This document shows, piece after piece, positions 6,999-17,668 of a stretch of DNA of 61,030 nucleotides (position 1 is its first letter; the number at the start of each line of letters is the position of its first letter). The DNA is from a virus, in IMG/VR virus record IMGVR_UViG_3300030099_002804, positions 1 through 61,030 of that record. One strand, given 5' to 3'. The notes beneath the pieces are model-generated. The model saw nothing but the letters and a program-made list of their open reading frames with translations, searched no databases and was not told where the DNA came from. A program made the translations under genes and the position numbers.

Positions 6999-8516
6999 TC
7001 ACAACCTAACATATTTACTCGATGATGGTCTGCGTTTATTAGTTTTTGGGTTCTTTTTATTCTTAGACCAGCCACCCATGCTGGTTGTTTTAGAAATCAT
7101 AGGCATTTGGTCGTTTTGCTTTGGTTTGAATTGGTCTATGGCATGTGCTAATGCCATAACTGTATCGTTATGTTTTCCAACATCAACAATCTCGCCGTTT
7201 TTCCAAACATGAGCCTCTAACTCATCGAGAATAATGTTGACCTTTTTCCTAGTAGCGTCATCTCCATAGGGGAATACTACTAACTTGCGCTCAAACCAAA
7301 CACGCAAGCGGTTCATTAGCCCTTGTTTGAGTCCTTTGTTGGATGCTTTGGATGGGCGATAGTCTAAGTGTCCCCCTTTTTGCTCTATGACTGTTTGGTA
7401 TAGTCGCTGAAAACCTACATCTTCAGCCGCAACTGGGGCACCGTAGTGTTTTGCCCACTCGATAATTGTGTCTGCTTGCCTATCCGGCGGGAAATCATTT
7501 TTGCGCCACATATCAACAAAATGAATATACCCCTGTTCATCTTGACGCAAACATATTAAGACGGAGTAATCTTTGCCTATACCATGAGCAGGGTCGAAAC
7601 CGAGGATGAAACGGGAACCATCGTGGAGTTGACCGTCGAAACCACTAATGGCTCCTATGTCTATGTGTTCTCGGATGAGGTGCCTGTTGAAAACTTGGGA
7701 GTCATCATCCACGACCTTGCACAAATACTCCTGTGCGAAAGCGAGGTCATCGTCTATGCTGATTTTTTGTTCCAACAAAAACTCGGTGGGTCTAAACTCG
7801 GGCCACAGTGGCAGTAGTGGGATATTATCGGGGTCGGCTCTATGCTCATCCCAATTGGGAAACGCAGACCACACGCCGGATTTCCAAACCTGCTTTGCTT
7901 TTTCGGATAGCATTTCAGTATGGTACAGGTCGGTATGAGACATTGGTGTGCCTACACAAAATAGTGATGTACCGGGGTCAAGCATAGGGGTTACTACCTT
8001 CTTAAACCATTCAGCAACGGTGTCCATAGTCATGTCACCCATTTCAGCGAGGACATCATCAAGTGCTACTACGGCTGGGTGTTCTCCACGAATAGCAGAA
8101 CCTACACCGGTCGCTTGAATCCAAGCCCCGTTAGTAAATTGAATCCTTTGTTTGTTAGAACGCTTATCATCAAGATACTTTCGTAATTCGGGATGGCGGC
8201 GCATATCCGTTTTAATTTCCTCAAGACGGTTTGTAGCCTGTCGTATGCTGGCCGAAAATAACCATATTTCCATAGGTTGCCCGTGTCTTTGCTCGAATAG
8301 ACACATATGTAGCAGTTTTACTCGGAGAGTAGCCGATTTACTGTGGGAGCGAGGAGCGATAATGCAGACACGGTGGACTTGGGCACCTTTACGATTGCCG
8401 TATAATTCCATCCACTCATCTATGTGGTCTGCCCACTTGTATTCGGGCGAGAGCCACTCATAGAAATGTTTAATGTCATGGCGTGAACGCTCGAAGTTAA
8501 AGTTGGGCATTACCAT
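6999..8516 (-). CDS. terL: terminase large subunit (packaging ATPase-nuclease)
   Basis: 505 residues from the ATG at 8516, whose first base overlaps the preceding stop codon (TAATG arrangement); a longer in-frame start at 8582 would run across the zinc-protein gene. ATPase domain: Walker A variant APRSHSKS (about residue 54), Walker B VVALDD followed by a catalytic-acid region (about 150), and motif III VGTPMS. Nuclease domain: GFDPAHG (first acidic residue), AAEDVG (second) and a final KHNDTVMALAHA aspartate. It cuts concatemeric DNA and pumps it through the portal. The gene is complete and all key residues are present. Confidence 0.93.
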   Translation of the reverse strand: MVMPNFNFERSRHDIKHFYEWLSPEYKWADHIDEWMELYGNRKGAQVHRVCIIAPRSHSKSATLRVKLLHMCLFEQRHGQPMEIWLFSASIRQATNRLEEIKTDMRRHPELRKYLDDKRSNKQRIQFTNGAWIQATGVGSAIRGEHPAVVALDDVLAEMGDMTMDTVAEWFKKVVTPMLDPGTSLFCVGTPMSHTDLYHTEMLSEKAKQVWKSGVWSAFPNWDEHRADPDNIPLLPLWPEFRPTEFLLEQKISIDDDLAFAQEYLCKVVDDDSQVFNRHLIREHIDIGAISGFDGQLHDGSRFILGFDPAHGIGKDYSVLICLRQDEQGYIHFVDMWRKNDFPPDRQADTIIEWAKHYGAPVAAEDVGFQRLYQTVIEQKGGHLDYRPSKASNKGLKQGLMNRLRVWFERKLVVFPYGDDATRKKVNIILDELEAHVWKNGEIVDVGKHNDTVMALAHAIDQFKPKQNDQMPMISKTTSMGGWSKNKKNPKTNKRRPSSSKYVRL

Positions 8517-8662
8517 TATCGCACCACCCTCATGTTGCCGCAATAAACTGTGCGCTTTTGTTTTGGACACCATTTGGTGCATGAAGTGTAACAGGCGTTT
8601 GCTTCACGACCACAGTTGTTACATTTGCGTAACTTTCTATGGAATCTGTGTCCTCCAGCCAT
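8516..8662 (-). CDS. 48-residue zinc-finger-like protein
   Basis: Reads MAGGHRFHRKLRKCNNCGRE and continues with ANACYTSCTKWCPKQKRTVY, CGNMRVVR. Six cysteines in CxxC and CxxxC spacing plus basic residues suggest a small zinc ribbon that binds nucleic acid. The start follows the phosphoesterase stop by two bases, and the stop overlaps the terminase start (TAATG), so the three genes are translationally coupled. It could help DNA recognition for packaging, but no known small-terminase motif is seen. Confidence 0.75.
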   Translation of the reverse strand: MAGGHRFHRKLRKCNNCGREANACYTSCTKWCPKQKRTVYCGNMRVVR

Positions 8663-13909: not shown

Positions 13910-16432
13910 ATGCAAACAACAACAACAACAGGAAATATACTGTTGGACCTAGTTGTGGTATTGTTGGCACTATTGCCAATTATGATGCCACTTCTTGCTG
14001 TCCTAACAGTACTGAGAAATGAACGAATGAACATGCGAATAGGTCTTGAGATTGAAGCAATCAAGAAGGCCCACATTCGTGAGTCACCACATGAGAAGAT
14101 GGCACACTGGATAATGAAGTGTGATGAGAAGATGTTGAAACTAATGTCCTCTCGAACACGGAAAACCATTCGTGCCCTCAAAGTCTCATTCCGTGGCTAC
14201 ACTCACGAAGTCATGAGCGAAACGAAGATTGTCACAGACTCATCATTGAGTCGTGGCGGCTTTGAGATTGTGTCACCCCCACTAATCGGGCGTGGCGTGG
14301 TTATGTCGTGGATTAGTCGGATGATGTCACACCTTCGAGGCGTGGCTGAAGTCGATAGGTCATGCGGCCTTCATGTCCATGTGGGTCTGAAGGACTACGG
14401 CGCAAGGGCAAACCCCGTCGAGTTAGGCTTTACCGAGCCTTCAGACAACCTTAGTCCCGAGGACTACGCCAAGGCCGTTACAGGCCGTGTGGCGTGGGCT
14501 TACGGGTACTTTCAACATGCAATCAATCTGATTGTTAGCCCAAGCCGCCGTGACGGTGAATGGAGCCGTAATGTCTCCTACATCAGCCAACAATATCGCA
14601 ACCCAAGCGAAGTACGCTTCGCCCAGCGAAAGTGGAATGATGAACATGGAATGTATGTCCGAGAATGGCATACCGAAACCGACCCCGCAAAGGTTGGCAT
14701 GGTATTCTATGACCGACTGTACGAAGGTAATCCCGACTACGGTGACTCTCGCTATCAGTGCGTAAATCCTCAATCACTACCGAAATACGGTACGATTGAG
14801 TTTAGAGCGCACCAAGGCACCACAAACGCAACCAAGATTCAGAATTGGGTGCAATTTTTGCACCTACTGGTCAGCCGTTGTGCGAGTAACTATTGGACCG
14901 ACATCACCAATTTCCGTGGTGACTCAATCCATGACCTATTCACTTGGCTTGGTTTGGCAGACGATGACCCACTCTATGTGGCTATGGTTCGCCGTATCAA
15001 GGCACTGAATGGAAACAACCCTAGTGTATTCCGTAATGACCCAATCTTGGCACACAACGCACTTTTCAAGGAGAGCGTAGTTTGCTCCCGATGTGGTTCG
15101 GCTTCTTGTGACTCAGATGAAGTGTGTGGCACCAACTACACACAAGATTTGATGGAGGAAACCGAGGCTCACTTTTTGGACTTGGATAGGGCATGCGATA
15201 CATGTGGCACATTACTTCGGGAAACCGAAGCACACATGCGCTATGACTACGGCGACCATCATGAAGCACACTGCCCTAACTGCGGCGATATGAGAGTGTT
15301 CAACGCTATGGGAGGAGTTATCCTCTCAGTCATGCTTGGCACCCTACCACTCGCACTGGTTATTGTAGGATGTGGCATTGGTGCCATACATGCGGCGGCT
15401 AAGACCTTCAAGGCCAAGCGATTGTCAACTAGACTCTTCAAGGCATTATCAGCCCGAGGCAAACAAGCCTCGGGCTTTGCCTTTGAGAATGGAAAGGGAG
15501 TGTACTATGTGAAAGCACCACACTCCTCAATCGCTATGGCTCACCATGTCCCGAAGCAACTACGCAAGCAAACTCAGTGGAGTATGTTTCACACCCGCTT
15601 CGCAACTCATGGTGCCAACAACAAGGCAAACGCTCACCCTCACTTTGGTCGCAAGGCTAAGGTAACGCTAGTACACAACGGCGTCGTACACAACCACGAC
15701 GATGTATGGATGGCATTGGGCGAGAAGCCTACTGGCCCTGTGGACTCACAGGCCGTAGCACAGTGCCTAGAAGTTGGTGGTATCGAGAAGGTAGTCGAGT
15801 TATGCAAGGGCTCAATGTCCTTGATTTGGTCTGATAATCGTGACCCACAAGGTACCCTCAAGTGCTGGACTAATGGAGGCAATCCATTGGTTATGGGTCG
15901 CATAGACGACGCAAGCAACGGCCCCGTAGTAATTGCCTCAACTGAGGCACTACTCAAGGAGGGATGTGGCAAGCGACTCAAGACACATTGGGATGCAACC
16001 ATAGGGCGTGAATACACAATCTCGCCTACCGGTAGCATCAGCAAGCGTGACATCGAGGGCAGTGAAGCAACCGCCGGGGTCGTCTATGATTGGCGCACCT
16101 ACAAGGTCGATGACTACTACTACACCTACGGCGCAAACTACTCGACTACCAAGACCAAGAAGCGACACCTACCTTATCGCATCAAGCAAATTGCGAAGAA
16201 GGAGTTAGAGCGCCTTGGTAGTTGGGAGCCAATCGAAGGCAAATGGGATGGCTTCGACCTTCATACCTTCAGTGGCATCCACGCCGCTAAATGGGATAAG
16301 GATGGCAAGCCCTTGACCTACGCACTACCGCAGTACATCAACCCGATGCACTATGATAGTGACCTTGAGGAGATACTCATGGGGTCGCACAGACCCGATG
16401 AGTTGGACTCATGCACATATGAGGCCCCTTGA
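13910..16432 (+). CDS. membrane-anchored amidoligase-like / class II glutamine amidotransferase fusion
   Basis: 840 residues. Residues 9-35 form a membrane helix. Residues about 43-350 match the amidoligase (Amidoligase_2, glutamine-synthetase-like COOH-NH2 ligase) pattern: GLEIEA (45-50), FEIVSPPLI (118-126), CGLHVHVGL (152-160) and TIEFRAHQGT (295-304). Eight cysteines in CxxC pairs (392-458) make zinc knuckles. Residues 465-487 are strongly hydrophobic and run straight into CGIGAI, where C488 aligns with the N-terminal nucleophile of class II glutamine amidotransferases. The rest of that domain is intact: HTRFATHG (561-568), NAHPH (574-578), HNG (589-591) and D612, with spacings close to GlmS. 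Predicted role: release ammonia from glutamine and form an amide or peptide bond using ATP. C488 is internal, so proteolytic release or an internal start would be needed for canonical chemistry. Function is inferred; the target is unknown. Confidence 0.85.
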   Translation: MQTTTTTGNILLDLVVVLLALLPIMMPLLAVLTVLRNERMNMRIGLEIEAIKKAHIRESPHEKMAHWIMKCDEKMLKLMSSRTRKTIRALKVSFRGYTHEVMSETKIVTDSSLSRGGFEIVSPPLIGRGVVMSWISRMMSHLRGVAEVDRSCGLHVHVGLKDYGARANPVELGFTEPSDNLSPEDYAKAVTGRVAWAYGYFQHAINLIVSPSRRDGEWSRNVSYISQQYRNPSEVRFAQRKWNDEHGMYVREWHTETDPAKVGMVFYDRLYEGNPDYGDSRYQCVNPQSLPKYGTIEFRAHQGTTNATKIQNWVQFLHLLVSRCASNYWTDITNFRGDSIHDLFTWLGLADDDPLYVAMVRRIKALNGNNPSVFRNDPILAHNALFKESVVCSRCGSASCDSDEVCGTNYTQDLMEETEAHFLDLDRACDTCGTLLRETEAHMRYDYGDHHEAHCPNCGDMRVFNAMGGVILSVMLGTLPLALVIVGCGIGAIHAAAKTFKAKRLSTRLFKALSARGKQASGFAFENGKGVYYVKAPHSSIAMAHHVPKQLRKQTQWSMFHTRFATHGANNKANAHPHFGRKAKVTLVHNGVVHNHDDVWMALGEKPTGPVDSQAVAQCLEVGGIEKVVELCKGSMSLIWSDNRDPQGTLKCWTNGGNPLVMGRIDDASNGPVVIASTEALLKEGCGKRLKTHWDATIGREYTISPTGSISKRDIEGSEATAGVVYDWRTYKVDDYYYTYGANYSTTKTKKRHLPYRIKQIAKKELERLGSWEPIEGKWDGFDLHTFSGIHAAKWDKDGKPLTYALPQYINPMHYDSDLEEILMGSHRPDELDSCTYEAP

Positions 16433-16485: not shown

Positions 16486-16515
16486 GATTGTGGGGGGCCT
16501 CGGCCCCCCGCAATC
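16486..16515. terminator. GC-rich hairpin after ligase gene
   Basis: GATTG-t-GGGGGGCC-tcg-GGCCCCCC-g-CAATC, a long GC stem 54 bases after the stop codon of the ligase fusion. It lacks a T run, so termination or 3' end protection are both possible. Confidence 0.6.
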
Positions 16516-16714: not shown

Positions 16715-16954
16715 ATGAGCGATAAACCGACCATGAAGTATTGTCCCCACATCGAATGTGGTGGTAAATTACAACCGCATTCATTTGACTCGGCAACGGG
16801 TTGCTTGGACTGTGATGGCCCATGCTCCCCCCGCCGTGTTCAGATGTGGCGAGACAATTTGAAGCAACCAACCGAGGAACCCGAACCTAGACTGGTCTAT
16901 CAAGGACCAGTTACCAAGGAGGTTTGGGAGGGCTTGTGCTACTGGAAACAGTGA
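16715..16954 (+). CDS. small zinc-ribbon protein
   Basis: 79 residues. CPHIECGGKLQ and CLDCDGPCSPRR give a two-knuckle ribbon resembling phage/archaeal topoisomerase-type or Com-like fingers, followed by a Pro/Glu-rich linker and a Trp-containing tail. GGAGG sits 8 bases before the ATG. It is the last gene before the terminator at 17050 and may be cotranscribed with the ligase fusion if the hairpins between them are leaky. Function unknown. Confidence 0.7.
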   Translation: MSDKPTMKYCPHIECGGKLQPHSFDSATGCLDCDGPCSPRRVQMWRDNLKQPTEEPEPRLVYQGPVTKEVWEGLCYWKQ

Positions 16955-17049: not shown

Positions 17050-17130
17050 AAACACACAAATGGGGTCGCCCTTCGGGGCGGCTCCAAATATGTGTGTTTT
17101 TTTTATTTTTTTTATTTTTTTTTATTTTTA
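17050..17130 (+). terminator. long stem plus extended T-tract terminator
   Basis: AAACACACA (from 17050) pairs perfectly with TGTGTGTTT (17091-17099), and within it GTCGCCC-ttcg-GGGCGGC makes an inner stem. A run of T with few A follows to 17130. It ends the small zinc gene transcript before cassette 6. Confidence 0.8.
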
Positions 17131-17396
17131 ATGTACATTAGTAAGACTATAGTCTTACTGCATAAAAGAGAGAGAGAGAAAGTTGAGAGAGAAAGAGAGA
17201 GAAGTAAAGAGAGAAAGGGGGAGAGAGAGCATTAGTAAGACGAGAGAGAGAGGCGCATGTGAAAGAGAGAAGAGTTAAATAGTGGAGAGAGAAGTCTTAC
17301 TTAGTAAGACGAATGAATTGGCGAGAGAGTCGCTATGAAAAAGCCTTAGTAAGACGAAAAGAAGGAAAAGTATATAGCGAGAGAGAGAGGCTAAAC
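17131..17396. repeat. intergenic cassette 6: AGTAAGAC sites in a 230-base GA-rich array
   Basis: Starts with a perfect 20-base palindrome AGTAAGACTATAGTCTTACT (17140-17159), then GA-rich DNA with few pyrimidines to about 17396. Further sites: TTAGTAAGACGA near 17233 and 17343, and the palindrome GTCTTACTTAGTAAGAC (17294-17310). It is the largest of the six cassettes. Repeated, bidirectional sites point to binding of a multimeric protein, such as a replication initiator or a regulator. Confidence 0.7.
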
Positions 17397-17668
17397 GGTG
17401 TACTGCGAGCCTGTCGAGAGAATAGAGAGCCAAAAAAACTGTCAATGCGTATGGAATGGAGTAGGTAAATCAGGTGTTTCCAGCAACACCTACTGTTATC
17501 TGCTACCACCTACATTCAAGTAACAACTCCGGCAAAAATCACAATATCCGGCAGTGCCAGCCGACACGCCCACAACGCCAGCCGAAACACGCACCGCTAA
17601 ACGCACCCCTGCTCGGCCATTCACCTATCAACATTCATATACTCACCCCCGATTCTTGCCACCACCAA
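17397..17668 (+). other. gene-free stretch before the small-gene operon
   Basis: I see no supported gene. One hairpin stands out, AGGTGTT-tccagc-AACACCT (17472-17491). The rest is C/A-rich and continues to the promoter at 17669. An open frame from a GTG at 17474 runs across that promoter and has no ribosome site. Confidence 0.5.

Follow-up and report, generated by a model that had tools for sequence, protein, structure and literature searches.

The open reading frame at positions 13910–16432 (+ strand) of the IMG/VR virus record IMGVR_UViG_3300030099_002804, whose 61,030 bases make up the window analyzed here, encodes an 840-aa fusion of an amidoligase and a class II glutamine amidotransferase (GATase), which is read through in 20 other virus records. 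This protein is probably a two-enzyme precursor with a cleavage point between Gly487 and Cys488; the Ntn fold of the GATase itself is the most likely agent, and the ligase and GATase halves would cooperate. The nucleophile, C488, is preceded by 487 residues in the encoded chain and is internal in all 21 members of the family. Class II GATases require that the amino group of their Cys be free and, as judged from the alignments and the modeled fold, the domain very probably becomes functional only after cleavage at Val-Gly/Cys.

The same window encodes a terminase (Terminase_6C), a replication-factor-C-like AAA ATPase, a family B DNA polymerase, and an ERCC4-type nuclease. The best matches of the polymerase by coverage were haloarchaeal tailed viruses, which points to an archaeon as the probable host. 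A search of the window for tRNA found none.

Architecture of the fused gene

The encoded chain begins with a hydrophobic helix (TM1, residues 9–36, 13934–14017), followed by the amidoligase domain (residues about 43–375, 14036–15034), which carries the conserved motifs GLEIE, H155xH157, and GT[IV]E[FY]R and was recognized as Amidoligase_2 (PF12224) with a Pfam E-value of 3.7e-15 and 56.9 bits at a gathering cut-off of 22. Solved structures searched with the amidoligase profile gave no sequence match, and the Foldseek rows that related this half to YbdK were weak and were not relied on. Three zinc-ribbon-like CxxC pairs (C392, C429/C432, and C455/C458; 15083–15286), the number of which differs across the family, precede the second hydrophobic helix (TM2, residues 468–487, 15311–15370). 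The predicted cleavage site, Val486-Gly487/Cys488, is located at 15365–15373. The GATase domain (residues 488–750, 15371–16159) was identified by Pfam, PHROG, profile, AlphaFold, and structure superposition; GATase_6 (PF13522) matched with a Pfam E-value of 4.9e-14, and the matches to PHROG GATase families begin at residue 488. A C-terminal extension (residues 751–840, 16160–16429) completes the protein.

Both the fold and the catalytic residues of the C-terminal half, as modeled and aligned, are those of a class II glutamine amidotransferase (Ntn, MEROPS C44). The residues of the glutamine site, i.e., the Cys, the glutamine-binding Arg of the HTR motif (H561–R563, 15590–15598), the HNG motif (H589–G591, 15674–15682) with the Asn/Gly of the oxyanion hole, and Asp612 (15743–15745), which binds the alpha-amino group of glutamine, were invariant in 77 fused and separate sequences. 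An AlphaFold2 model of residues 455–757, built on the alignment of these 77 sequences from the fetched loci, reached a pLDDT of 90–98 over most of the GATase and a pTM of 0.81. Its first strand begins right after C488, the preceding hydrophobic residues were mostly below 50 pLDDT, and the helix before C488 lies outside the confidently predicted GATase fold. The ammonia route that the initial annotation had offered as one role of this helix is neither favored nor contradicted by the model. The full-length AlphaFold prediction from 9 sequences (mean pLDDT 59.7, with a low-confidence helix running through C488) was too shallow and was not used for the junction.

In VIA-align superpositions, model residue 34 (C488) coincided with the first residue of PurF (E. 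coli and B. subtilis), GlmS, and glutamate synthase, with Z of 17.7–26.7 across these rows and the highest value for PurF. Among them are glutamate synthase (1ea0, 1ofe) and the processed form of PurF (1gph, 1ao0); in the cleaved Arabidopsis GPRAT2 (6lbp), C488 superposed on Cys87. GlmS was the best profile match among solved structures (E 1.7e-30), and here, too, C488 fell on residue 1. The coincidence of C488 with the first residue of processed enzymes, together with the first strand that starts immediately after it, indicates that the modeled GATase domain is complete from C488 onward.

Several features of the surrounding DNA can also be mentioned. A GC-rich hairpin, GGGGGGCCTCGGCCCCCC, is located directly 3′ of the fused gene at 16490–16515; the relative L001 has a different sequence at this site, GGGGGTGTTCGCACCCCC, which is also able to form a hairpin, so the stem seems to be kept via paired changes. 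Further downstream, a small Cys-rich ORF of 79 aa (16715–16954) gave no Pfam match and was detected near the fused gene in seven of 20 related loci. The region 17100–17450 is gene-poor and contains long purine-rich (GA)n tracts, T-rich runs, and repeated AGTAAGAC words. On the minus strand, an antisense ORF crosses the GATase at 15640–16053; it had tblastn matches in all 20 related loci and is probably a shadow of the conserved GATase.

The fused family and its separate counterparts

Members of the family were found by three viral-contig scans and six-frame profile searches, with both domains required in one open frame. In this way, 20 further distinct virus records with the fused layout were obtained (21 with the window), and each of these homologues keeps the Cys directly behind the helix, the layout that the initial annotation had proposed to look for. 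Every member had exactly two hydrophobic segments above the usual membrane cut-off, at matching positions: the first precedes the amidoligase, and the second stands immediately in front of the GATase Cys. All fused GATases were located on one branch (SH-aLRT 100) in the tree of 77 fused and separate GATases, and therefore one fusion event suffices. Identity to the window protein drops as low as about 30%, and the fused proteins of these viruses are about 30–56% identical, whereas the terminases of these viruses (7002–8582 in the window), which lie on the same side of the gene, were 82–89% identical where compared. This difference indicates one virus lineage in which the fused gene is changing very fast for an enzyme. 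A single scan of 84,980 genomes revealed no cellular or proviral fused homologues and gave three distant GATase relatives.

The separate viral genes provide a view of the presumable state before the fusion. In all 127 distinct separate viral GATases, a start codon stands directly before the Cys (ATG in 118, ATT in six, and GTG in three), so a free N-terminal Cys is a need of this enzyme class. An amidoligase gene was located directly upstream, on the same strand and within 300 bp, for 76 of these 127. Among 172 separate amidoligases, a hydrophobic helix was found at the start of four and at the end of none. These comparisons indicate that the fusion joined two neighboring genes and that the hydrophobic helix arrived with the fusion. 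The ancestral separate GATase would have begun with Met-Cys, the removal of Met leaving the N-terminal Cys, and this Met would have been lost in the fused gene. The ATT codons were found in six distinct phage genes (L007:3947–3955, L035, L037, L039, L042, and L047), several of which have a GGTGGA or GGAGGA-like site upstream, and ATT is apparently a conserved non-ATG start at this position.

The same two domains in the same order occur in Arthrobacter phages Ottawa and Kovu, in E. coli phage Bas93, and in IMG/VR pairs. In these pairs, however, the genes are separate, usually less than 130 bp apart, and the GATase begins with Met-Cys, whereas the window GATase is fused and its Cys is internal.

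Release of the internal cysteine

Residues 465–487 are NAMGGVILSVMLGTLPLALVIVG (15302–15370), the sequence leading into C488 ends with MGGVILSVMLGTLPLALVIVG, and C488 itself is encoded by TGT at 15371–15373; translation of the ORF thus reproduced the positions and residues given in the initial annotation. An internal Cys with a hydrophobic helix directly before it was confirmed for the window as well as for the 20 further fused records. The hydrophobic stretch, which had been drawn over the whole of 465–487, should be narrowed to a core of about 468–487, residues 465–469 (NAMGG) being weakly hydrophobic. Mean Kyte-Doolittle hydropathy of the core was 2.48 in the 19-residue window from residue 470, and only this segment and the N-terminal helix exceeded 1.6 in the 840-aa protein.

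Between the window and a 95%-identical relative, codons 464–487 contain five synonymous and no non-synonymous changes, which indicates that the junction is translated as protein and is under purifying selection at the protein level; for the whole gene, pS was 0.30 and pN 0.03. The joining of two genes by a sequencing or frameshift artefact was rejected owing to the occurrence of the fusion in 20 other records and to purifying selection across the junction.

Conservation is concentrated at the site itself. Position −2 is Val in 21 of 21 members, position −1 is Gly in 20 and Asn in one, and the Cys is present in all; among the 30 residues that precede the Cys, −2 and −1 vary least, and the remainder of the helix is variable. 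From the Cys onward, CGIG and the His at +7 (His494, 15389–15391) are invariant in fused members; His is absent from the six commonest +7 residues of separate GATases, which are headed by Ser, Ala, and Ile.

With no codon able to start translation at the Cys and with an active site under selection, we infer cleavage of the Gly487–Cys488 bond, a 487-residue enzyme serving as the “propeptide”. As in glutamate synthase and in PurF with a propeptide, the cutting agent would most likely be the Ntn fold, the Cys thiol attacking the Gly carbonyl, followed by hydrolysis. Gly at −1 is common at Ntn cuts, as in proteasome beta subunits. Self-cleavage is the simplest explanation because the fold cuts itself in other members, Gly occupies −1, and conservation within the helix peaks at the two residues preceding the bond, although packing, a lipobox, or some other constraint might also account for the retention of Val and Gly. 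Cleavage would yield a ligase half whose C-terminus is the hydrophobic helix, together with a soluble GATase that starts with the freed Cys. These halves probably stay together and would convert a carboxylate substrate to the amide with ammonia from glutamine, as proposed by analogy with the phage amidoligase and GATase gene pairs. Release by proteolysis or self-cleavage, one of the routes listed in the initial annotation, is thus the best reading, given the layout kept in the 20 further homologues.

Because the cut would directly follow a hydrophobic helix that looks like a signal or anchor segment, and the residue at −1 is small, another protease acting at or near Gly487/Cys488 (signal-peptidase-like from the host, intramembrane, or viral) deserves consideration. 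This seems unlikely: the Ntn fold is normally self-cutting, TM2 is not preceded by a positively charged n-region (0–2 Lys/Arg and 0–7 Asp/Glu in the preceding 15 residues of the 21 members), and a secretory peptidase would put the GATase outside the cell, away from the glutamine supply and the ATP-dependent ligase. Export is also implied when the helix and [LVI]VGC are read as a lipobox, with the Cys lipidated and the C-terminal domain anchored outside. The pattern [LVI][ASTVI][GAS]C indeed matches 18 of 21 junctions; however, the remaining three fail it (TVGC twice and IVNC once), −2 is strictly Val, which is not so in typical lipoboxes, every member has 3–6 Lys/Arg opposing export in the 20 residues from Cys488 on, and the probable hosts are archaea. 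A lipidated Cys cannot be the GATase nucleophile, yet all catalytic residues are kept, and we regard lipoprotein processing as very improbable.

The same retention of catalytic residues bears on the suggestion that the chain is never cut, so that the GATase either serves as an inactive scaffold or acts with its Cys still inside the chain, the ligase drawing on free ammonia. Beta-lactam and carbapenam synthetases demonstrate that GATase-like domains can lose function while keeping the fold, but every GATase catalytic residue is invariant in the fused members, and the values for this domain against the 95%-identical relative (pN 0.027, pS 0.306) are unlike those of a vestigial domain, which makes this explanation improbable, though slightly less so than lipidation. 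Finally, translation of a separate GATase might begin at an internal start codon located within or ahead of the helix; Met467 had been put forward for this role. In the window, in-frame ATGs are indeed present 21 and 13 codons before the Cys. Nevertheless, no start position is conserved across the family, L014 has neither an in-frame ATG nor an SD-preceded GTG or TTG over the last 70 codons ahead of the Cys, and initiation would still not free the Cys; a start at Met467 would leave 20 residues before it. The −1 and −2 codons are those for Gly/Asn and Val. An overlapping out-of-frame ATG at 15370 (GGATGTGG) was rejected as well, since the nearest relative has GGG for GGA and the ATG is lost. 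Internal initiation can hardly be maintained and was judged the least probable of these explanations. Cleavage by the Ntn fold is thus the reading retained below.

Membrane topology and relation to known systems

A membrane-spanning helix between ligase and GATase had been noted as hard to reconcile with channeled ammonia, and this concern proved to be real. In the 15 residues after the N-terminal helix, 3–6 Lys/Arg stand against 0–3 Asp/Glu, Lys/Arg being at least as numerous as Asp/Glu in 21 of 21 members; the 20 residues from the Cys on contain, besides their Lys/Arg, 0–1 Asp/Glu, and the stretch before TM2 is neutral or acidic in the family. By the positive-inside rule, positive charge after both helices would place amidoligase and GATase in the cytoplasm, with which one uncut two-span chain cannot comply. 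These flanking charges thus speak against ligase and GATase being separated by a simple membrane span. Either TM2 does not span the membrane, or the chain is cut first and the helix then serves the ligase half as a tail anchor. The order “cut, then insert” is favored tentatively: a single cut at Val-Gly/Cys might both free the nucleophile and make the helix a C-terminal tail anchor, with ligase and ammonia source on the cytoplasmic side, a possible arrangement to which we attach rather low confidence.

To our knowledge, the GATase domain leads the mature chain in every characterized class II GATase, since its Cys has to be N-terminal. Propeptides of GATases, self-cleavage by Ntn folds, and amidoligase–GATase pairs are already known. 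Self-cleaved GATase propeptides are established (PMC7056826, PMC9140057); in Arabidopsis GPRAT2 and B. subtilis PurF, removal of the propeptide exposes the Cys (PMC7056826; for the class, PMC9140057). These enzymes share with the window protein the class II GATase fold and an internal Cys in the precursor. However, their propeptide is a short or transit region and their GATase is N-terminal in the mature enzyme, whereas in the window protein a 487-residue ligase with a hydrophobic helix precedes the Cys and the GATase is C-terminal. The large subunit of glutamate synthase (GltB) likewise loses a propeptide to expose Cys1, the residue that coincides with C488, but its GATase is N-terminal to the synthase domains, without amidoligase or hydrophobic helix. 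In GlmS, Cys1 follows the initiator Met, and the sugar isomerase domain of that enzyme is lacking in the window protein. The Cys Ntn-hydrolases acid ceramidase and NAAA expose an N-terminal Cys by self-cleavage of a longer precursor (PMC9140057), but they are not amidotransferases and their alpha fragment is not a second enzyme. The hydrophobic helix of the window protein is without parallel in known GATase propeptides.

Literature searches found no published description of an amidoligase–GATase fusion, although an earlier mention is possible in Iyer et al. 2009, reportedly the main survey of amidoligases. To the best of our knowledge, a class II GATase that follows a complete ligase and a hydrophobic helix, and that is maintained in this order across a virus lineage, is a new arrangement.

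A survey of magroviruses lists “GlmS” among auxiliary genes (PMC10160649), which may be a GATase of the kind found in the window and not glucosamine-6-phosphate synthase. Viral genes annotated as GlmS via their GATase domain may be amidoligase partners, and a gene of the window type would be so named. The near-invariant Val-Gly/Cys site would offer a test case for GATase self-cleavage with an unusually large, functional “propeptide”, and the fused protein is a case of domain order, membrane topology, and activation constraining each other. If the order “cut, then insert” is true, this virus lineage would have a polyprotein that achieves enzyme activation and membrane targeting through a single self-cleavage event.
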